Positions 3,071 through 60,164 of a stretch of 64,000 nucleotides of DNA are shown here, one piece after another. The stretch lies in the NCBI GenBank assembly GCA_030272585.1, contig BSYQ01000009.1:1488001-1552000 (forward strand), written 5' to 3'. The position numbers were made by a program, and so were the translations under genes. The notes beneath the pieces are model-generated. The model saw nothing but the letters and a program-made list of their open reading frames with translations, was not told the DNA's origin and ran no database searches. Position 1 is the stretch's first letter. Every line of letters starts with the position of its first letter. This stretch comes from Bryopsis sp. KO-2023. Its lineage: Eukaryota; Chlorophyta; Ulvophyceae; Bryopsidales; Bryopsidaceae.

Positions 3071-3357
3071 GTCGAGTGGGGTAGCGCCCACCTGTTGCCC
3101 GAGCGGGGACTGTTGAGTGTGGATCAAGGGCTCTTGCCTGCGGTCCCGTGCTGAGCGTGGATGGTTCGTCCTTGCCAAGGGGCGGGTCCACGGGGCCGAC
3201 CAGCCTGAAGGTTGGACGGTGCCGTGGGTGACGAGTCGGGCACAGCGCTAGGCGGGAAACCGAGCAGCGATCACCGGTCGCCTGCCTCGGTGGAAGGATA
3301 CCAACCAGAGCAACGCATGGGAGTCACCAAAGACGGGAACTCCGAGAGACCACTCAA
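3071..3357 (+). ncRNA. Signal recognition particle RNA (7SL/SRP RNA)
   Basis: This is the RNA scaffold of the particle that targets secretory proteins to the ER. The region is abruptly GC-rich and has the landmarks in order. Helix 3 is GTGGG...CCCAC around a GGTAGCG-type loop, followed by a TGTTG (UGUNR) turn and a short helix 4 (CCC GAGC GGG), together the Alu domain. Helix 6 is a long hairpin near 3191-3230 with CCACGG pairing to CCGTGG and CCAGCC pairing to GGTTGG. Helix 8 near 3250-3270 has the diagnostic GGAA loop followed by GAGCAG (read as AGGCGGGAAACCGAGCAGCG). The length of about 290 nt fits eukaryotic SRP RNA. The exact ends are approximate, and no long T-run terminator is visible right after it. 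Confidence 0.85.
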
Positions 3358-3834
3358 TTTATGTCCAACTACACGGAATAGGCTCCAACTATGATTTCCA
3401 GCATTCATTGAAAAGCACCTATGAGTTATTCTTAAAAAACACTGAAATACAATACGAAAAAAATGTGGATCAATAGCTTGTCCAGGAAGGAAGGGGGTGA
3501 CAACGTCTCGGGTTTACTTTCTTCTTCTCTATTTTTTGTAAATACTGGGGGGGGGGGGGTTCCACACTTCATGTTTGGTTTTCCTGACACTGTGGGAGGG
3601 GTGGGAGTTCTTTAAACCAGTCACAGAAACAACACAAGGTACCTTACGCTCATTTTCAACGTCAGGTTTTGTATTCATTGGTGTTGGGTTCACACAACAC
3701 GAAATTCAAAATTCAAACCCACCTTGGACAGCTGACTCACCAGTCCGTAGGCCCAGTCTCACACGCGCAATTGGACCGCCAACCAAAATGCGTAGAATCC
3801 TGCCCTTCCCACTCACCCTGCATCACAGTTGTCG
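3358..3834. other. Spacer upstream of the SbcD-SbcC fusion gene
   Basis: No gene seen. It includes a G-run at about 3547-3559 and a mixed-composition stretch just before the ATG at 3835, which is presumably the promoter and 5' UTR of the fusion gene. Confidence 0.4.
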
Positions 3835-6800
3835 ATGAACAAATCGTGTTTGCGACGGGTTTTGCTGTTCGTTCGTCCTCCCTTTCAAAGCCCCCGCGTC
3901 TCAGAAGCTCGAATTCCACACCTTTCAGCGTTCCCTCGCAGTTTTTCCGGTTCACTCCGCTCCGCCGGTGGCCGGCAAGGAGATGGCCAAATTTGCCATT
4001 CTGTGGCTAAAATCGGCGATGCAGATTTCGTAGCTCGCTGTCGAGATGTGTCTGGATGGGTGGTCTTTTCCGACCTCCACGTTACGAAACGAACGCTCCC
4101 TGCATGCATCGAAACGCTGCGGATCGTTCGACAAGAGGCGGAGGAGCGGGGCGCCGGCGTGCTGATGTTGGGTGGGCGATGACGACAATCATGACGACTT
4201 TTGCTCAGTTCCCCATAGATCGAAATATTCACATGATATTCCTATGAGGTGTTAAAGGAAAAGAATGAATGAACATCCTGCATGCCAAAAGCCCGCTTTT
4301 CCCTATTGTTGATTCACAACTTTTCATCCTTCATCTTTTCTTGCTGCATCTGCTGGACATAAATTTATTCGCTGCTGTTCTGGTTTTTTTTGTGTTTTCC
4401 TCCATGTGTTTAGCATCATGCGTTGTGCTTTTTCTTCCAGGGGATTTTTGGCATCATAAAGGATCATTGCCAGTTGAACCTTTGAATGCCGTGCTATCCG
4501 AGTTGCGGCCCTGGAATTTTCCGATGCTTATGCTCACAGGAAATCACGATCAGGTCAGCACAGTTTTCCTACCAGAGATGCAGCCCCATTTCTTTTTTAC
4601 AAAAAAGTTGCAACCCAATGCCACAGTGAACATCATAAAGCATAATATATAATATAATAATAATTTGTAATATATTAATGGTCATCCTTTCCTGCATGTT
4701 CAAACTTGAGACAAGCATACATACATGCATGCATGTATTCATGCATTTGATCCCTCAATTATTAAGCATCAGATAAAGCCTTACTGCTCAGGTGGATTTA
4801 AAAGGATACCTGCATGCATTGGTGCCACTGGCTGCTGGCTGCCCAAACGTGCATGTCTTCGATGAACCCACCTCATTCATGGATGCGGTGTTTTTATCCT
4901 ATCACAGCGACTCTGTGCTACTGGCAGCCATGATGGAAAAATTGGTGGACCAGAAAACGAAAGCCATGTTTGTGCATGCCGATGTGGTGAGCATCCACTG
5001 TGCGTTTTCAATGAGTGATAAAGATCGACCCCCGAAAAGCTACATTTTCTTGCAATATCATGCATTGAATTAGCATTTTAAGGGATCGATTTTCACATCC
5101 TATTAACCACGACCTTCATTGCTCCTTGATTGTTGGTATCATTGATGGACACACACATGCGATTTTTTTATTTTTAATTGGTGTTGCTCACAGATCGGGG
5201 CAATAATGAACGATACGTTCCGAGCAAAAGAAGGGCTGCATCCTGATACATTCCCCCCTCTTTTGCCAGTGTTCAGCGGTCATTATCACAAACCCCATAT
5301 CGTGGATGGAACCACGATAGAATATGTCGGATCGCCTTATCAAGGTGAGCGTTCCCTCCTTGGATGGAGTCGAGGCGATATGATCTATTGGATTGGGGGT
5401 TCCAATCCTGAAGGGCACCATTTCTTGCTCATTTCTATTCAATTATATTTAACTGCAGGAGGTCATGTGCCTTTTCTTCACCTGGTTCAGAACCCTATCA
5501 TTCCTCTGTTCGATTGCAGTTTCTCAGGCCGAAGCTGGTCAGACCAAGCATCTTTTGATCCTGGACAACGATTGGAGAGTTGTGGAAAGGAAGCCTTTGG
5601 ATGTCGGCCCGAGGCATTTCACCCTAAGAGACGTCAGTTCTGAAATTCCGGAGGACGTGAGGAAAGGCGACAGATTGAGGTGGTACATCGATGCCAGCGA
5701 TGAGGATGAAATCAAAGCTGCCGAGAAAGTGTTGAGAAGAAAAGGTGTTTTGATGGTAAACCTCAAGGGAAACGAAAACCCTCTCACAAAACAGCCCATT
5801 GATTTCTCGCTGATTTTTGGAATCAAAAATCTTTGCATCAAGTTTGAAAATTCTCAGAAGAGTGGGTTTTTTTTTCTCATCGCGTGGAAATCCTTTATTG
5901 AGGGGGTGGTTTGTTGGCAGAGGTGACGGTGGATGTTATCGTCAAACCTTCCAGCAGCGCTCCTCGCATCGAGGAGGCGGAAACTTTGCTGCCTGGTGAA
6001 TTGTTTATGAAATATGCGGAGAGCATCGAAATGACGAGTGGAGCGATCAAGAAGGGGGAACAAGTGGTGAAGGTAGGGGGAAAGCAGGGGGGGGGGGGGG
6101 CGACATATTATTTATTTTTATATAAATAATATATTTATTTATCAGCACACCTTTGACACCTTTGGGTAGCATTTCGAACATTTGGAGGTGCTTGGTCAAA
6201 TATGAGTCCCCAAATGCAGCAAATCTAGGAGGGGGCGCAGTGAATTTTCTCGACGAAAACCGATATGGTTCAATATCACTTCATGTCAGACTCCTGAGGT
6301 GGAGCTGAACGTAATGATCTTTTCGCCTTCGTTTTAAATTGTTTTGATTTCTCCCCAGGCAGTTGGCGGTGGTGACAGCTCGCTTCAGAGGACGGCCACC
6401 ACGATCAACTTCGAATCGGTCGAGGTGGAAGGATTTGGACCTTTTCTGGAAACTGTGAATTATCCGTTGGATGATGGTGGGGTAAGGGTCGTTTGTGGGA
6501 GGAACGAGGACGATTCCAGCTCGCAATCCAATGGAGCTGGAAAAAGCATGTTGGTTTCGGCTCCCTTATGGGCAATCACTGGGAGAATCGATGTTCGAGG
6601 GGAGGTAAATTTTGGCAAGCAAAACAGCAAATTTTTTATATGCACATATTTATGTACTTTTTGATGTGAAAAAATTGGCAGCATAATGATGTGATATGAG
6701 GCAGAGTGGCCAAAGACATATTCTGCATGTGTGAATGAAAACACGCTGCCAAAGGTAAAAAAAGTCCTATATCTTTTCTTATCCACCGACGTTTTTTTCT

Positions 6801-9800
6801 TCTTTCTTTTTTCCTTTTTTTTCTTTTTTCCAAAAAAAGATGAGTGGGCGGCCGACCAATGCTGACATCGTCCATGATGAAGCCAAAAGTGCGAGGGTGA
6901 AAGTCACTGGAACGGCGAACGGGGAGCCTTTCGTGGTGGAAAGGGTGGTCAAGCGAAGGGGGAAAGGGAGCCTCACTTTCTTGATGGGCGAGGAAGATTT
7001 GACCAAGGCAGAGGTCAAGATGACTCAAGCGGAGATCGATGAATTCATCCATGCTGAAACGCTGGCCAGTTTGGCTTTCTTTGGACATGGAAATGTGACT
7101 GCCCTGCTCGATGTAAGAAAAATAGACTGCTTGGTTTGAAAAGCAGCCTGCCTGTTTTTTGGGGACCATGCTTTTCCTCGTTCTATTTTTTTGTCCAAGT
7201 TATTTGAAGATGGATCCTGTTTGGTTTTTTTTTGGCATTATTTCCAGGCGAACGACACTGCGTTCAAAGCGGAGCTAGGGAAAATCGTCGATTTGGAAAT
7301 CTGGAAAAGGGCCAGGGAAGTGACTTGGAATGAGTTGAAAGACAAAGATGCTGAATTCGAGAAAGAGCTGTATGCATCCCAACTGCTGCACACCACGTTG
7401 AAAGAACTGGAAGCCAAACTGGACAGCGCCAGAAACGAAAGCCAACACTGGGAATCACTAAGAACGGAAAGACAGCATGTTTTGCAACAAAGTTGTGAAG
7501 GCAATGCCAGGTGCATGACCTGGAATCGAAATTTCCTTCTCCAAGAAAATTTATGTTCATGATGTGGACCCCCCCCCAATCCCACAAAAATAATAAAGAA
7601 TTGACTTTTAGGGAAAAACGGACTGTTGACGATCGTTGGGTTGTCTTTTTTGAAAGGTCATTGGCCAAGCACCTGATCGAAGGGCTGAACTTGGCGGAAT
7701 CGATCAAATCTTGGCTGAGTTGGGCTGAAACCCAGAACCCAACATCCTCCACACTGAACCCAGTTGCAGAAGAAGGAGCCAATTTTGGCAGCTTTGATAG
7801 TGGTGGGGGTGGCTTTGCAAGAAAAAGGGTGTTCTCTTTCTCGGTGTCTGAAAGGCCACCATGGGATGATGATTATGAATCGGAGGAGGAGAAGGAGGTT
7901 GAACAAGAAGCCGGCTCTTTTTCGGCAGCCCCCTGGGATGTGGATTTCGAATCAGAACGGACGGGAGGGTCAAAAAAACCAAGAAACGTTATGAAAACCC
8001 CCTGGGATGTGGAATTCGAATCAGAACAAGAGGAAGAACAAGAAGCTGCCTCTTCTTCGGCAGCCCCCTGGGATGTGGAGTTTGAACCAGATCAAAAAAT
8101 TGCAGCGAAAGGAAAAAGGAGAAAGTCGGTGAAGGAGGCTAGGGAGGAATCGATGTCTGTTTTGAATGGCGATGCTGGGATCGCTTCTGAAAATGGTAAG
8201 GTGGAATTTATAACTCATGAGGGTGAAAACGCTCTCCATCAAGAACTGTACCAAACAGAACGTTCGGAATAATTTACTTTTCTAGATTGTTTTATTTTCT
8301 TCGGTGTTTTTTCCCCCATGGTGCCCACCCTCTTCCTCCTTACAAATGAGTGATATCCATATATACCACTCATAGATTTTTGGCCCGTCGTTTTATTTGT
8401 ACAGTGGATTATTGCCATTGCATTTTTTAATGTTATATATAAGGAAAGAGTCTTGCATTCATCTGAGCAAAGTGTGATTCTGTTCAGATTTTTTTTTGTG
8501 ATTTTTTTTTTAAATATACTCTTTGGTTGTTGAATCTCAGTGTTTTTACCTAAAATTCGATCTACTAGACATTCTTTCAGAGAAAGTAACATTTGTTTTA
8601 CGCTTAAAAAATACCAAATCATTATTTTTTGGGGGGGGGGAGTGTGAGAGAAAAGAGTGAGAGCAACTTCGTTATTAGAAAAAAAGAAGTTATCTTTGTG
8701 TGTGGCTGAGTGGTGTTTGTGTCCAGTGGAGCTGGAAGCCATGACAGTCCTGAGAGCAAAGCTGGATGATTTTAGGAAGCGACATTTTGATCAAGAGAAA
8801 GATGCCGCCCTAAAAAAGGGTCTATTCGAGGTCAATGACCTTTCCGATCGATTCGCATTCCAATCTTGATTCAAATTTGAGCAAAGATTTTTCCAACTTG
8901 TTGAATGCGGCCAACTCTCTTGGCCACATAATGCAAATGCTGCTCTTTTTTATCTTTTGGGTTTTTTTTTCTTTTCTAAGTTTTATTTCTTTTTGTTGTT
9001 TTTTGGTTGGTCCAGGCAAGTGAAAAGGCCTACAGGTCGTATTTGCAACTGAATGCAGACAAGTCAGACACAGGGACGCTCACCTGCGACAGTTGCTTGC
9101 AAGAAATCGACTCGGCCACCTTCAAGAAAAATTGCAAAAACCTCAAGGTAGAGAAAATAGAGTTTCAAGAGAATCGCTTCTTTCATGAAAATTTTACTTG
9201 TTTCGTTCTTCGTTTTATTATGTTGGGTTTTGTTGCAATTTTCTTTTCTTTTTTTTTTTTTTGGGGGGGGGGGGAAAGAGTTGTTAGGGATGAAAAAAGA
9301 TGATCACAGTCTTCAAAAAAAGTATTGTTGTGTTTTTCCAGTCTTTCCAGTATTTGATTTTCACCTCCTTTTTTTTTTTCCTTTGAACAAAAATTAAACA
9401 ATATATTTAAAACAGATTATATATATCCACTTGCAGCCTCATAATTTTCCTAGTTTGTAGTGCGTCCCTCTGTCTGTCTGTATTCTTTTCATTTGCTTCT
9501 CTCAACAAAACTGAACCTGGTGCATTTTACAGAAATCGATGGATGCTGCCAGCTCAACATACCTCAATTCTCGGTCTGCAGCATCCGATTTATCAGAAGA
9601 GGTGGAGTTAATTTCGGAACAGCTTTCGAAAAGGGTAAAACGTTGGCAGGAAGAAGAGGCCGAATTTCGAAATGCGCAGAGGTTGGCAGAAGAGGAGGAA
9701 AAACGGAAGCGGGAAGAAGAAAAATTGCACCAAATCGAAAGAGAAAGGCGATTGGCAGCACAGCTTGAAACACAAATGAAAGCAATCAGGTGTGCGAAGC

Positions 9801-11931
9801 TGTGGTGTTTTTTTTTCCAATTTTTTTTTCGGGCGGGGGGTCAATTTAAAATTTAATTGGATATGGATTTGACAAAAAATGAGGAGGAAAAAAAAGTAAA
9901 ACTGGAGTAATGGTGCATCTCTTGTTGGATGATCTATTGTGAACAACGAAAAAATTGCTGATTCTGTTGCTTTTTGCTCTGAAAATTTTGTTAATTCGAA
10001 ACAGTCCTCCAATTAATCACCACCACAGTAGCATGCCACATAATGTTTGCAAATTTTTGAACCACATTGTGGTCACATTTTATTATTCTGCAGGGAATTT
10101 GAAGAGAAGCTGGCTCTTGCCAGAGGCAGCGTTGATCGACTTCGGGTGATGCATGGTAGAATGTTCCCAAGACTGACCAGATTTCAGCTAGAAAGCGAAA
10201 GGGTTTCGGAAAGGCAAAAGCAAGGCTCCCGAAAAACCAGCAAAAAAAATCAATGGAAGGAAATTGCAGACGTCGACCCCCTCCTGGAGAACATCCCGGA
10301 GTTGATTTCGCAAGCGGAAGAAGCTGATTATGATCTAGCATTTGAATTGGAAAATTTGTATGTGGTTAAGAAAGAGTCAAACCCACACATCGGTGAAGTC
10401 AGAAGGTGATTTTTTTTTCCCATATCAAAAAGGTATTCTTATGTTTTTGTGGAATTATTCGATCAAGAGTTTTTCGGCTAAGATGAATAATTGCTTCAGG
10501 AAAAAAATGAAATAAAATACACAAGAAATAAGGGGAGAAAAGAAAGCAATGATATTTTATATGTGAGGTTTTTAGAATTGATGTTGTTTGTTGAGGGGGG
10601 GGGGGGGGGAGCAAACTTCCTTCTTACAAAATCTGTTTCAGACGCATCTGCTTGTCATTCGAAGCATTGTTTCTTTGAAGAATGCTTTTTCAGGGAGTTC
10701 TTTTAGATATGTTGAATCCTCCATTCTGCCAGTGAATGGTTTTGCAAGGGTAATTTCTGTCTTGCAAATTCTGCAGATTCACGGAGCTCACACAAGAACA
10801 GAGCAAAAAACTCAAAAAGAGTGAGGAGGAGTCAAAGCGGTTGGGGAAAGAAAAGGAGATCCTTTCCGAGCTGGACAACGCATTCAAGCCTGGAGGGGTG
10901 TCGAGCTTCATCCTGGAAGGCATGATTTCGGATTTGCAACACAGGAGTGCCAGGTTCATCGAGCATCTCTCCCCAGGGACTTTGCTCGAGCTGAAATGCA
11001 CGAAAGCGACCAAAAACGATTCGAATTCTCTGGAACGCATCAGCAAGGTGCGAACAATTGTGGAAGTGCCGTCTGCACTGTTGCTTCAACGAAGGGAGGG
11101 GTGGAATTCGATTTTTTTTTTTCTTTCTAAAAATGGAGAAAATTCAAAGGGGGGTGATGTTCTTGAATAGCCAGAATATCAGTGTCGATGCCAACTGGAT
11201 GTAAGGGTTGCAGTTTTAGAGTTTACATATGAGTTCACATGACATGGAGGAGTGATATATATCTATATATATATATGCACACACACACAAACACATGTAT
11301 ATACATATATTTGAATTTTTGATGCCATGCTTGCAGGAATTTACGATTCGGACGGCCGGCGGTAAAGTCCGAGAGCGATCTTTGCAACAGTTCAGCAGCG
11401 GAGAAGTTCGCAGATTGGCGCTCGGCTTGAGTTTGGGATTCTCCACCCTGATTTCTGAAAGGGGCAGGCTCCGATGCAACATCATTGTGTTCGATGAGGT
11501 TCGAAAAATGCCCAAACTCACTTTTTGTCGCATGATTTTTCCACAAGTTTTTTTTTGGCGAGGATAATTTTTTTCTTCAATTCCACATTTTTTTTTCTGC
11601 TCGGAAAGAAAGCGATTGGTGAAAAGTGAAAATTCTTCTGATGATTCTTTTTGGGTATTTCTTATTTCTTATTTTTAAGTATATTTACTTTTATATATGC
11701 ACATTTCCCAAATTGACGATTTTTGTTGTGTTGTTTCGAAAGGCGTTGGGTCAACTCGACAGGGAAGGCTGTGAAAGAGTGGTTCAATTGATGGAAACCC
11801 TTCCTCAGAGCAGCACCTTTTTGGTCGGCCAAGAAGGTTCTTTTGTCATGCAATCCTTCGATGTCGTAGACTGGGTGGTGAAAAGAAACGGGGCATCCAC
11901 AGTCGAAGTGCATCCTCACAAATCCGGATGA
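3835..11931 (+). CDS. SbcD-SbcC (Mre11-Rad50-like) single-chain fusion, 17 exons, 1306 aa
   Basis: Predicted DNA double-strand-end processing enzyme with nuclease and ATPase in one chain. Exons: 3835-4171, 4441-4553, 4792-4986, 5194-5344, 5520-5744, 5921-6072, 6359-6604, 6840-7112, 7248-7510, 7657-8195, 8727-8830, 9016-9147, 9533-9789, 10094-10405, 10777-11047, 11337-11498, 11743-11931; the frame is continuous throughout. Residues 1-45 are basic and acid-poor, so may be an organelle presequence. The metallophosphoesterase has FSDLHV (78-83), GDFWHH (113), GNHD (146) and GHYH (244). The ATPase half has Walker A SNGAGKS (448-454), a coiled coil with a CDSC zinc hook (890-893), the signature SSGEVRRL (about 1210) and Walker B IIVFDE (about 1239-1244). 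The arms carry a four-copy PWD repeat insert. An AATAAA lies at 11998, 67 bases after the stop. Bacterial SbcD and SbcC are separate proteins. An organellar role is inferred only. Confidence 0.93.
11251..11311. repeat. AT and CA dinucleotide microsatellites
   Basis: Alternating TA tracts flank a CACACACACA tract within the intron before exon 16 of the SbcD-SbcC fusion gene. No function is implied. Confidence 0.7.
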
Positions 11932-12793
11932 ACCTCCCCCTCCCCCCAAAAAAAACTAACAAACAAACATAGAATTGTCAGTTTTGAAAGAAGCCTGAAT
12001 AAATTTAAAAAAAAAAATAATTTTTTTGGCATGATTTCAACATATATTCGCCTCGTTAATTTTCACTCTTTCTAGTTTTTGTTCGTATTTTGGTATGTTA
12101 AGTGTGTTTGGATGCAGATCGATATTGCTTCTACAGATTGTTGTTATAGAATTTTTTGCAGAATCATTTTGCCGGCCGGAGTATATCTGGAAATGGCGGA
12201 ATGGAGTTGTTTTTTTTCGCTTGTTCTACTTGTTGTCGGTGGCTTGCATTTTCAAAACGGATGAGATTTTGTAATGAAATCGAAAGGAATTCGACAAAAA
12301 GAATGAATCTTTTCTCATTGCCAGATCATCCGAAGTTTTTTTGTTTCAACTCTGGGATTTCGATGGAGAAAGGAAACTATGAAATTTTTAAAATAAAAAG
12401 TTAAACTTGAGTTTTTTAAACGCTTGCTGGAGATTTTTTAAAAGCTTGCTGGAGGGAATTCTGACGCAGAGGCACGAAAGCTGACTGTCTGTCTTTTCAG
12501 TAATCCTGGAAGCTTTTGAGAGCACAGCTACCCCTAAATTTGTCAAGAGGAGTCGCCAGAGATTTTTTACTCTTGAGTGGAAAGTATTGATCCAAAACGA
12601 ATGCATACTTCTGTGACCAACTCAGGCTCGTTAATATTTGAGAAATAATTTGCAGCAAAAGCAAGGAAAGACAGATGACGTGTCGGCCACCTCCAACCGT
12701 TACGAAGAAAGTCCTTATGACAGACATGATATTGAATCTGAGCAACTTCGTCCTCCGCTTTGCATTCTGTTCACGTCCCACACTTGAGTTCCG
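11932..12793. other. Spacer between fusion gene and RPN12
   Basis: No gene seen. AATAAA at 11998-12003 probably ends the upstream transcript. A short duplicated phrase (GCTTGCTGGAG) occurs near 12422-12455. The right end, with more GC, is presumably the RPN12 promoter and 5' UTR. Confidence 0.4.
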
Positions 12794-16382: not shown

Positions 16383-16607
16383 ATGTGTTCTCAGACGGAC
16401 TCAACGCGACGTCTTGATTTGAGTTCTGTGACCTCATACCCAGAAGCAGAACACCCCAAATGGAGTTGTTTTTTTATGCGGGGGGGCTTTTCTGGCGCGA
16501 GCACTCTATACCACAACTGGAGGGCAACGGCGGACCGCTTCGGCGTTACAACTCTTTTCGTATTTGAAACCGTTGGTTGGCGAAGGGGAGGTTCCGGAGT
16601 CGACCTT

Positions 16608-17846
16608 ATGGCCAAGCGAAAGTCTCGAAGCTCGACATCCGTTTCGAAAAGTGGCTCTCTCCCCGGAAAGGACAGTAGAACAGATGTGAATTCATCTGGG
16701 ACCGCCGCCAACGGAGCCAGTTCTGGCAAGGAAGAGACTTCCGCTGGGAAATCGACGTCTCGAGTGCTGGTGGTCGATAGACGTACGGTGGCTTCAGCCC
16801 AATCCTCCCTCCCAGCGTCTCGGTCTGACCCCAGAGATCTTTCTTCTGCTCCCAATTTTCCCGCAAGAACTCGTAGCTCGAATGGTGTGGCTGGAGTGAG
16901 TGATGTTGTCGGGACGTCTCGGAGTGCCACCGCGTCTGGAGCCAGGGGTCGGGGTTCTAGGAACGGATCGGGAAGTGGTCACAGTTATTTCACTCGGAGC
17001 AAGCAGCCACGTCCCGATGCAAATCACAAACCCCCTCCTCCTGAAAAGGGAAAACCAAAATCGTCGAAAAAGACGCCAATCTCTGCCGAAACCGAGCCGG
17101 TTCCGAATCCCTCCAGAATCCCCCCAATACCCGGCAAGGAAGGGGGGTTCATGGAGTTGAGTAAAGGAACGGGGGCCTTCGTGGGTTATTGGAAAGATGT
17201 GTTCAATTCTTCTGAGGAGATTATGGAACAACTGAGAACAGAAGTGGAGTGGTTGGACAAAGAGGTGGTGGTCCGAGGGCAGAGGAAAAAGCAACCTAGG
17301 CTGATTGCTTACATGGCTGACTCGGAGGATCTCACTTACACTTACTCTGGACTGAAACTGTGGCCGAAGGATTACACTCACACGGTCCGAAAAATCAAGG
17401 AAGTCCTCCAGGGGGGTGGCTATGGTGGCGAAAAATTGGATTTCAATTGTGTGCTCATGAATTATTACAGAGATGGGGAGGACAATGTGGCTTGGCATGC
17501 TGACGACGAGCCTTTGTTCGGACAAAACCCCACCATCGGCTCGGTTTCCTTCGGAGCTCGCAGAGATTTCATTCTCCGAAGCAACAGCGATGCGTTGCAG
17601 AAGTTTGTATATAAATTGGGGGGTGGGGACATCCTGGTGATGAAGGGCACCACGCAGGAATTGTACAAGCATTCCGTCCCGAAGCGGAAGAGCATAGGGT
17701 TGGGACGAATCAATTTGACGTTCAGAAAGATAGTGGAAAAGGAGAGGTTGCGGAAGGGTGAGGTGAGCCCTCAGGAACACCAGGGACTGAAATTGAAGAT
17801 ATCGAGTGCCCAGTCCGAAAACATCGACAGCGAGGTGGTTGATTAG
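16608..17846 (+). CDS. AlkB-family 2-oxoglutarate/Fe(II) dioxygenase (ALKBH2/ALKBH3-like), single exon
   Basis: Predicted oxidative demethylase that reverses alkylation damage such as 1-methyladenine and 3-methylcytosine in DNA or RNA, using 2-oxoglutarate, oxygen and Fe(II). With the start used here it has 412 residues. About 180 residues of Ser/Arg/Lys/Pro-rich, probably disordered and nuclear-type sequence come first. Then comes the catalytic core: NYYRDGEDNVAWHADDEP gives iron ligands His297 and Asp299; SVSFGARRDF follows; YKHSVPK gives His355; GRINLTFR gives the 2-oxoglutarate-binding Arg367 and Arg373. The spacing matches ALKBH2/3. The frame stays open upstream to an ATG at 16383, which would add 75 residues. 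I prefer 16608 because MAKRKSRSS starts the basic region, but this is not decisive. It is intronless among intron-rich neighbours, possibly an old retrocopy. Confidence 0.9.
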   Translation: MAKRKSRSSTSVSKSGSLPGKDSRTDVNSSGTAANGASSGKEETSAGKSTSRVLVVDRRTVASAQSSLPASRSDPRDLSSAPNFPARTRSSNGVAGVSDVVGTSRSATASGARGRGSRNGSGSGHSYFTRSKQPRPDANHKPPPPEKGKPKSSKKTPISAETEPVPNPSRIPPIPGKEGGFMELSKGTGAFVGYWKDVFNSSEEIMEQLRTEVEWLDKEVVVRGQRKKQPRLIAYMADSEDLTYTYSGLKLWPKDYTHTVRKIKEVLQGGGYGGEKLDFNCVLMNYYRDGEDNVAWHADDEPLFGQNPTIGSVSFGARRDFILRSNSDALQKFVYKLGGGDILVMKGTTQELYKHSVPKRKSIGLGRINLTFRKIVEKERLRKGEVSPQEHQGLKLKISSAQSENIDSEVVD

Positions 17847-58524: not shown

Positions 58525-59700
58525 CGCACGGCGCTACGACCGGAGTCTTGACGAGAAGTATTGTTGCGTGGATACTGTGATTTTTCCTATCCGGTCGACG
58601 GCTGCCCTCGCTGACGTGGGGTAATCTCCGTGCTGTGAAATTCATGCTACATATTTGTAACATTTAAATGATTAAAATCAGAATTCTACGATTCTACGTG
58701 CTATTTTTTAGGTGTGGGGGGAAATCCAGCACAGCAAGAGCACCTGAGTTAGCCAATGGATCGATGCCTCCTGTGTCTGGCATTGTGTGCAACAATGGAA
58801 AAGAGGTTGATATGCAGATTTGAGCCTTGATTGCGTGTTCTTTTTTGACTCCGCACCAACAGGTTTTTCTGTTTTTATTTTAAGAAGCCAAGATGTCTCT
58901 GTAAAATGCATATTGGGAACAACAAAGATAATTTTCCTTGCTACTATCACAAAGAAAAGGGAAAAATCAATCTGTCCAGAGGTTTGGGAAAAACACAGGA
59001 TGGGCAACAAGAAAAAAAAAAACAGTCAAGGTTAGAACCCAGTTGTAATATATTTTGGTGAGTTTTTTTTTGCTGGAGGTCACTGAGCGAAATTTGATAG
59101 GGTAAATGTGAAGGAAGAAAAGGAAAAAGACACCATTGTTTTCATTTTGGAGGGGGTTGGTCTCGAAATCAACCCCCAATTCTGAATTCAGAAAAGGGGA
59201 CAGGATCTTTGCTCTTTTCAAGGATTCTTGAAACCAGTTTTTTCATTGCATGATGGAGTGTTGATCGATTGTGCTGAAACAGTGATAAACAAACATTGCT
59301 GAAAATAAAAAGAACAGCACAAAGCAAAAGTCACCACCACTAAAATGCAATATTGAAATTTGCCTTCAGGAAATAAACATTAAAATAAGCCCAACAGAAA
59401 CTCGAGTGAGGCCTCAATTTTTCCAGCACTCACTGCAAGCTTATTCATATCACTCATCTCACTGAACAAAGGGCACCAGAGGGATAGCTAACCTCAAGCC
59501 ACTCCTTTCTGTGCCAGCTCTTAAGAGCCACTCTGAAAGTTCCTGTGCAATCCCGTCCCTGGAAGTAGATGACCGTTATGTTTTCAGCATTTTATGGAAT
59601 GAATGTGCTGCACTTTGAGCTCAACGAATCACTTTTGTCTTTTCTTGATGCTTTTGAGTCTGGCTGGTTGGAATGGGGGAAAAAGTGGTGTTAAAAAGAT

Positions 59701-59773
59701 TGCCCCGGGCCAGAATCGAACTGGCGTCCCCCCTAATAACGAAGGGGTGCGTGGCCAACAACGCAACCAGGGC
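59701..59773 (-). tRNA. tRNA-like sequence, isotype uncertain (atypical anticodon loop)
   Basis: The minus strand folds as a 73-base cloverleaf. The acceptor stem is GCCCTGG with CCGGGGC (one G-U) plus discriminator A. The D stem is GCGT/ACGC with GG in the loop. The T stem is GCCAG/CTGGC around a canonical TTCGATT loop. The anticodon stem CCCCT/AGGGG is perfect but closes an eight-base loop (TCGTTATT) instead of seven, and the variable loop is four bases. By standard numbering the anticodon would be GTT (Asn) with C at position 33 where U is nearly universal; shifting one base gives other readings. It may be a tRNA pseudogene, a tRNA-derived SINE head, or an unusual functional tRNA. Confidence 0.5.
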
Positions 59774-60164
59774 AGGCTTCACGACCATTTGTGCCGTTGA
59801 AACCAGGTATTCTCAATATTTATTAATAACTGTCAGCACACGTGTGTACATAATCATTGTTTGATACGCAACAGAAACCTGCTCCACAATCCGACCTCAC
59901 GGTCAGGGTTAGGATTGACGCACAACTGTCGAACCCTACTCACCACGTTCATTTTCAATAAAAGCTTCACTCAAGTGTTTTTTTTGTGTGTGTTGGCGGC
60001 TTGGCGTACATGTTTTCAAGATGTTTGCTTGCACTTGGCACATAGATGGGAATGGGTGGGGAATTTTGTCTTTCCATATCCTAGTGGTGCTCAGCAGAAG
60101 AAACTAAACAGCACAGACTCCCAAGACAAAACTTCCCACTAGCTAGAAAGTCTTTACTTTCCAA

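Follow-up and report, generated by a model that had tools for sequence, protein, structure and literature searches.

A gene at positions 3835-11931 on the forward strand of the window (the 64,000-nucleotide stretch of the Bryopsis sp. KO-2023 genome analyzed here) probably encodes a single-chain Mre11-Rad50 protein of a phage-like, fused type, which the alga carries in its nuclear genome beside ordinary MRE11 and RAD50, and for which we propose the usual Mre11-Rad50 head, a nuclease role and a role in an organelle.

Gene structure and the joining of the two halves

The spliced model of the gene comprises 17 exons and 3921 nucleotides including the TGA stop at 11929-11931, and it encodes 1306 amino acids with no internal stops; all 16 introns begin with GT and end with AG, the splicing being that predicted by the gene model. 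A preliminary description of this DNA had reported a single continuous 1306-residue frame over 17 exons with complete sets of phosphoesterase and ABC-ATPase motifs. The predicted spliced model bears out the former, and every one of the motifs was located in the spliced protein. Chance and a pseudogene were rejected as explanations, as the frame is open across 17 exons and the motifs are intact.

Exon 1 (3835-4171) encodes a 77-residue N-terminal extension followed by phosphoesterase motif I, FSDLH (4066-4080; residues 78-82). Exon 2 (4441-4553) carries motif II (GDFWHH, residues 113-118), which it shares with exon 1, and motif III (GNHD, residues 146-149). The phosphoesterase continues in exon 3 (4792-4986), whose terminal motif is VHADV (residues 211-215), and in exon 4 (5194-5344), which holds the metal-binding motif GHYH (residues 244-247) together with YVGSPYQ. 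Exon 5 (5520-5744) encodes what we take to be the SbcD capping region. The nuclease half (D half) ends in exon 6 (5921-6072) with a presumed helix-loop-helix (5986-6072) that, by analogy with published proteins (PMC3175470), may bind the Rad50 arm.

A 13-residue linker (AVGGGDSSLQRTA) at the start of exon 7 (6359-6397) separates the halves, and the remainder of that exon (6398-6604) opens the ATPase half (C half) with a P-loop containing a 10-residue insert and Walker A SNGAGKS (region 6494-6547; ending at residue 454). The ATPase N-lobe extends through exon 8 (6840-7112), where FFGHGN occupies the Q-loop position (7077-7097), and ends in exon 9 (7248-7510), which also encodes the presumed first coiled-coil arm. 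Four PWD[DV] repeats (7856-8092) lie in an acidic insert encoded by exon 10 (7657-8195); exon 11 (8727-8830) encodes presumed coiled-coil, and exon 12 (9016-9147) the zinc hook CDSC (9085-9096; residues 890-893). Presumed returning coiled-coil occupies exons 13 (9533-9789) and 14 (10094-10405), and in exon 15 (10777-11047) the coil gives way to the start of the ATPase C-lobe. The signature motif FSSGEVRRL (11391-11417; residues 1209-1217) and Walker B IIVFDE (11481-11498; residues 1239-1244) follow in exon 16 (11337-11498), with the D-loop, LVGQEG at the H-loop position (11818-11838) and the stop in exon 17 (11743-11931).

The motifs by which the fusion family is recognized are thus all present (DxH, GD, GNHD and GHxH; Walker A, CxxC hook, signature and Walker B). 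When the protein was aligned with seven D-type relatives, the invariant columns were GD, GNHD, the VHADV histidine and the last histidine of GHYH; with six C-type relatives, they were the N, G and K of Walker A, CxxC, S-x-GE and DE. The algal fusion is nevertheless peculiar in having His at the Q-loop position (H556) and Gln at the H-loop position (Q1274). It lacks these two members of the usual ABC-ATPase catalytic set (Q-loop Gln, H-loop His) and retains the Walker B Glu and the signature, and because of the two replacements ATPase activity is not assured. The acidic insert is a further peculiarity, and no second copy of its PWD repeats was found in the genome in a search up to E 1.

That the D and C halves are joined in one predicted chain is well supported. 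By predicted splicing, a Mre11-like domain is followed by a Rad50-like domain in a single chain, and the linker of 13 residues reaches the length of at least 9-12 residues deemed sufficient in published fusions (PMC3175470). We regard it as very improbable that the exon model has falsely joined adjacent SbcD and SbcC genes. Although the exon join is itself predicted splicing, and relatives often have D and C as neighbors (C starts -200 to 500 nt from the D end in 60 of the 87 D frames with a same-strand C frame, duplicates counted), the first in-frame ATG of exon 7 (6548) lies 3' of the Walker A GAGKS (6533-6547). The ATPase half is thereby left without a start of its own ahead of Walker A, and the separate-gene reading was rejected for this reason. 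The exon 7 frame is, in addition, closed upstream by a TAA at 6335, the intron between the halves (6073-6358) is GT-AG and of phase 0, and neither AATAAA nor TGTAA starts between 4667 and 7111.

Phage-type affinity beside canonical MRE11 and RAD50

The best family match was a PHROG SbcD-like profile. With the first 546 residues past the extension as the query, PHROG_100 gave E 4.6e-36 and PHROG_77 5.1e-14, as against 1.2e-5 to 2e-4 for the NCBIfam SbcD/SbcC models and the full protein, these values coming from separate libraries and queries of unequal length. Scores stayed below the NCBIfam cut-offs for canonical SbcD (TIGR00619, 21.2 against 77.65 bits) and SbcC (TIGR00618, 23.5 against 478.5 bits). 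In Pfam, AAA_23 was above its cut-off (E 9.6e-8), and SbcC_Walker_B (2.4e-5) and Metallophos_2 (1.1e-3) were both under theirs. The likeness is not due to chance, because SbcD/gp47-like proteins can be aligned along the D half, and phage SbcC/gp46-like proteins along the C half. No significant match was found among solved structures (best E 0.042, with an SbcD at 0.094), an anti-phage defense library yielded two weak matches, each within the ATPase part, and a single-protein scan of viral sequences returned five pattern matches and no relatives.

A P-loop insert of at least eight residues is present in 76 of the 86 C-type sequences examined (algal fusion counted); it measures one residue in E. 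coli SbcC, Lachnospiraceae SbcC, T4 gp46 and a cyanophage, and the P-loop of the alga's own RAD50 reads VGQNGAGKT, without the ten-residue insert. In trees that each held two canonical rows only, the remaining rows having been picked by likeness to phage proteins, the algal D half fell on the phage side (100/100), apart from the two canonical SbcD rows, and the C half joined a long plasmid branch (90/67), the canonical rows not being set apart. Eight long rows were dropped from the careful D tree, and a sister relationship to Myxococcales bin5 seen in the quick D tree (SH-aLRT 87) was lost there. Judged from sequence, with the PHROG and NCBIfam scores in agreement, the algal protein appears to fit a non-canonical, phage-like type, which would place it outside the three canonical clades. 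The earlier label "SbcD-SbcC" is better given as "phage-type SbcD/SbcC", as distinct from the canonical bacterial pair.

Genome searches with TIGR00583 (MRE11) and TIGR00606 (RAD50) listed, as best candidates, four matches each, on C5 and C13; the fused locus was absent among the matches listed and does not qualify as canonical eukaryotic. The gene is thus distinct from nuclear MRN, as had been proposed, the canonical MRE11 and RAD50 matches sitting elsewhere in the genome. No second copy of the fused gene was found in the 91-Mb genome.

An affinity of this kind, the unusual Q- and H-loop residues and the viral origin that Yoshida et al. proposed for such fusions (PMC3175470) could all be accommodated by a captured viral gene, a giant virus or phage relic that has no host function and is decaying. 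However, the gene occupies one locus, its frame is open over 17 exons and its nuclease residues are intact, which suggests that it is old and has been maintained, and we consider such a relic improbable.

Relation to known fusions

The preliminary description had assumed that Mre11 and Rad50 are otherwise always separate. This does not hold: Yoshida et al. (2011) described fusions in moss, diatom, Micromonas, slime molds, bacteria, a phage and Mimivirus, mostly coexisting with canonical genes in the same genome (PMC3175470), and we found further fused frames, one in Listeria phage LMTA-57 and another at IMG/VR locus L042, with L145 a probable third on a by-eye reading. A claim to a new architecture fails, and the algal gene is a further example of a known, little-studied kind of fusion; our literature search found no functional study of Mre11-Rad50 fusions in any eukaryote. 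Nor is much gained from the argument that fusion fixes a 1:1 stoichiometry, since the two subunits of the usual complex are present 2:2 in any case.

By published description, the fusions of Physcomitrella (A9RK34), Phaeodactylum (B7FXD6) and Micromonas (C1N0B1, C1FJU6) resemble the algal one in their nuclease-to-ATPase order, short linker, non-canonical type and coexistence with canonical MRE11 and RAD50 (PMC3175470). The moss, Micromonas and this alga all belong to the green lineage; unlike the earlier fusions, the present one appears to be an ulvophyte's. Mimivirus R555 is described as likewise fused, nuclease first, with 1351 amino acids and a His in motif II, but is reported to have Asp in place of one metal-binding His, whereas the algal GHYH keeps both (PMC3175470).

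Among the closest phage sequences is the Herelleviridae SbcD/SbcC-like pair of Brochothrix phage A9 and Bacillus phage Eldridge. Phage A9 matches the algal D half at 31% over 237 amino acids and has a P-loop insert of identical length. In both phages the D and C genes adjoin in the order of the algal fusion but encode two proteins, with a shorter C protein and without the N-terminal extension or acidic repeats. Listeria phage LMTA-57 (KJ591605) has a single, intronless CDS, a 1009-residue frame with D before C; as the annotation of its relative A511 gives two genes, this frame may reflect stop loss or a sequencing slip. Canonical bacterial SbcCD and eukaryotic MRN have the domain types, nuclease residues and zinc hook in common with the algal fusion, but differ in their separate subunits, the absence of the P-loop insert (in the rows read) and a weak sequence match.

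N-terminal extension and proposed function

The basic character previously ascribed to the N-terminal extension was confirmed, since it is rich in Arg and poor in acidic residues: the first 46 residues contain one acidic residue (7.9 expected) and seven Arg (3.0 expected). At 3937-3966 lies RSFSGSLRSA, which is presumably an R-10-like motif. The hydrophobic moment is unremarkable, being reached by 279 of 2000 shuffles, and the highest Kyte-Doolittle mean over 11 residues is 1.04, indicating that a strong hydrophobic core is absent. Such a composition suggests organelle import, and the extension probably directs the protein to an organelle, the mitochondrion being likelier than the plastid. A plastid signal of the stramenopile kind (a SAF motif read by eye) was dropped because the LHC genes mark the host as a green alga and the start lacks a strong hydrophobic core. 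A rhizarian (chlorarachniophyte) host was rejected too, since the polyubiquitin repeats lie 228 nt (76 codons) apart and so lack the additional residue of Rhizaria; the genome has a bryopsidalean look.

It is somewhat unlikely that the protein is instead an extra nuclear end-processing factor working alongside canonical MRN, its extension being no targeting peptide. A hydrophobic moment no higher than that of shuffles would agree with this, but matches to canonical MRE11 and RAD50 are already present in the genome, and the Arg-rich, acid-poor start with its presumed R-10-like site speaks for targeting.

Two chains would dimerize into the usual head of two nucleases and two ATPases, with the short linker tying each nuclease to the root of the coiled-coil. 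As ATP drives the head open and shut, the metal-dependent nuclease would receive DNA ends or hairpins, blocked or palindromic ends would be trimmed for recombination, and the N-terminal extension would probably steer the protein to an organelle. We infer the splicing and expression of the algal fusion, as well as its activity, dimerization, localization and substrate. A more specific proposal, that this is a virus-derived organelle DNA-end nuclease in which the Q-loop Gln and H-loop His have been swapped yet still work and the acidic PWD insert in the arm recruits a partner, is offered tentatively and is unlikely to hold in full.

In summary, a well-assembled example of such a fusion, from an alga with MRE11 and RAD50 as well, lets one ask what the extra machine does, whether its place of action is an organelle and whether it came from a virus. 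The paired changes at the Q- and H-loops are, besides, a small, testable oddity of ABC ATPase chemistry.

The predicted single chain and its join

The preliminary description gave the gene's structure and length exactly: 17 exons at 3835-11931 on the forward strand, introns all GT-AG, 1306 residues and a single stop codon. All of the nuclease and ATPase motifs that it claimed were found in the protein, and the observation of a fused gene is real and was well read. With Pfam, AAA_23 scored above its cut-off, while SbcC_Walker_B and Metallophos_2 fell below theirs. When the Mre11/SbcD-like nuclease half (D half, exons 1-6) was aligned with five phage proteins, one plasmid protein and the E. coli protein, the invariant columns were GD, GNHD, the VHADV histidine and the last GHYH histidine; the DxH stretch is missing from one phage row because its annotated start lies later. 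Alignment of the Rad50/SbcC-like ATPase half (C half, exons 7-17) with six phage proteins left invariant the Walker A residues N, G and K, the CxxC, the signature S-x-GE and the DE of Walker B. Upstream on the same strand lies an SRP RNA gene (3071-3360; Rfam Plant_SRP, 117.7 bits against a gathering score of 105); 474 bases separate its end from the fused gene's start codon.

The halves are separated by a phase-0 intron (6073-6358) with GT and AG ends. Read upstream, the frame of exon 7 reaches a TAA at 6335 with no ATG on the way, and its first downstream ATG (6548) lies past the Walker A GAGKS at 6533; unspliced read-through from exon 6 terminates at 6127. Neither AATAAA nor TGTAA begins anywhere in 4667-7111, and an AATAAA occurs at 11998, 3' of the fused gene's stop codon, the use of these motifs as signals in the Bryopsis alga being an assumption. 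Five ATGs lie inside the intron, so that an unseen upstream exon could conceivably serve the C half. As read from the genome, these features are strong evidence, short of proof, that the two halves are joined in one predicted chain.

Phage-type relatives and earlier fusions

A 546-residue piece, running through the D half into the beginning of the C half, matched phage SbcD-like and SbcC-like families at E 4.6e-36 and 5.1e-14, respectively, and the whole protein matched the NCBIfam SbcD and SbcC models at 1.2e-5 to 2e-4, far below their cut-offs; since libraries and query lengths were unlike, just the wide gap is meaningful. By tblastn, 813 phage records were matched, none at 60% identity or more, and the three records examined among the best-placed ones belong to Herelleviridae. 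Plasmid records numbered 420, and 19 among the 20 listed match the ATPase part. Scans with a four-sequence alignment recovered 12 relatives in bacterial genomes and 127 in viral contigs (80 kept). In pairwise comparison the D half came closest to a Myxococcales MAG (31% over 244 residues), followed by Brochothrix phage A9 (31% over 237 residues).

For the D half, 108 sequences were reduced to 42 by removal of near-duplicates. A quick tree placed the fused protein beside the Myxococcales row (support 87). A careful tree of 34 rows, from which eight long rows had been dropped, placed it among phage-type rows, separated at 100/100 from two canonical SbcD rows and with no resolved sister. The C tree (37 rows out of 86) was poorly resolved around the fused protein and did not separate canonical rows; it paired the protein at 90/67 with a plasmid row, a grouping flagged for long branches. 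The P-loop of the C half carries a ten-residue insert. Inserts of at least eight residues at the same two columns occur in 76 of the 86 C-type sequences, the fused protein counted, a proportion that is no survey because the set was picked by likeness to phage proteins and holds near-duplicates; the spacing is one residue in eight (including E. coli, Lachnospiraceae SbcC, T4 and a cyanophage), and two were unreadable. What counts is how the insert sets the fused protein apart from E. coli, T4 and the RAD50 of the same genome, whose P-loop reads VGQNGAGKT. The D-half tree and this P-loop together support a phage-type affinity, without singling out a donor.

The preliminary description made more of the fusion's novelty than is warranted, as Mre11/Rad50-type fusions were published in 2011. 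Yoshida, Claverie and Ogata described Mimivirus R555, mentioned also in PMC6466248, and twelve further fusions from Physcomitrella, Phaeodactylum, two Micromonas, two slime moulds, five bacteria and one Bacillus phage, placed outside the canonical clades (PMC3175470). The Bryopsis gene has the same D-then-C order and a linker of 13 residues, compared with the 9-12 judged enough in the published cases. It is a new member of this set, from an algal group outside those listed above.

Among 101 fetched loci, some of them mutual duplicates, two open frames matched both profiles, in Listeria phage LMTA-57 and in an IMG/VR contig (L042). The LMTA-57 frame (L022:3902-6931) is annotated as one 1009-aa D-C protein; its relative A511 has two genes. 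In a deltaproteobacterial MAG (L145:1436-3217), the D frame continues into what was judged by eye a probable ATPase start, with a P-loop GKNFNGKS; this start gave no C-profile match at E 0.01, and the fetched stretch ends there. The C start lay -200 to 500 nt from the D end in 60 of 87 same-strand pairs, duplicates counted. A lost stop codon or small shift would fuse such adjoining genes, which agrees with the idea of repeated fusion.

Genomic setting

The genome (91.1 Mb, 28 contigs) also holds canonical genes: own-genome profile searches matched four exons of MRE11 on one contig (C5) and four of RAD50 on another (C13), all below whole-protein cut-offs that are out of reach for single exons. 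In this, Bryopsis resembles the published cellular carriers, all of which except Deferribacter also have normal genes (PMC3175470). No second copy of the fused gene appeared among the best candidates scored, from which a distant copy could escape: the nine matches to the 546-residue query and the three to the last 207 residues all fell at this locus.

Chlorophyll a/b-binding proteins are abundant (107 exon-level matches); one, joined from two exons, best matched the siphonaxanthin light-harvesting protein Bry-Lhcb1 of Bryopsis (502 bits over 218 residues), which points to a bryopsidalean ulvophyte as the host, probably Bryopsis. Elsewhere in the window, a forward-strand open frame at 16383-17843 encodes an AlkB-like 2OG-Fe(II) oxygenase domain (PF13532, E 2e-27), and an ARAGORN tRNA at 59700-59774 on the reverse strand, whose anticodon tta would read a stop codon, is likely a false or decayed call.

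Probable targeting, mechanism and peculiar residues

FSDLH begins at residue 78 in the fused protein and near the N-terminus in the four aligned phage proteins that have the motif. Relative to the remainder of the protein, the first 46 residues hold one acidic residue against 7.9 expected (P 0.0018) and seven arginines against 3.0 (P 0.03); their amphipathic moment was equalled in 279 of 2000 shuffles. By this N-terminal composition, the protein is probably imported into an organelle, with the mitochondrion ranked above the plastid on account of a putative R-10-like site in the extension. No functional or localisation study of a eukaryotic fusion was found in open-licence PubMed Central, and the one mention of MRE11 and RAD50 found in a review on how plants maintain their organelle genomes concerns the nuclear MRN complex (PMC8383295).

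In the general mechanism of the family, drawn in part from PMC3175470, the ATP-bound dimer is closed and binds a DNA end, hydrolysis gives the nuclease access to that end, and cutting occurs near blocked ends and hairpins. Two fused chains would form the same head as the usual complex. The suggestion that fusion fixes a 1:1 stoichiometry loses its force, since the usual ratio is already 1:1 and unchanged by fusion. What fusion would guarantee is joint import and assembly of nuclease and ATPase, which could be of advantage should the protein have to pass through an organelle membrane.

The ATPase has further peculiarities. At the Q-loop column (7077-7097) the fused protein has His, unique among the 86 sequences, with Gln in 54 and other letters or a gap in 31, so that the alignment there is not firm throughout. 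At the H-loop column (11818-11838) it has Gln, where 72 have His; four viral rows share this Gln but retain the Q-loop Gln, leaving the fused protein as the sole case of the pair. Compared with phage A9 (FFGHGNV against FFGQGNV; LVGQEG against VITHNE), the pair looks swapped. The coiled-coil arm also contains an acidic stretch, encoded by exon 10, with four PWD[DV] repeats (aa 719-797; 7856-8092) that are not in the six relatives of the C alignment and of which a genome search up to E 1 gave no other copy.

The interest of this new fusion is modest, and is raised slightly by its host, by the comparison that may be made with canonical MRN and by the apparent Q/H exchange.
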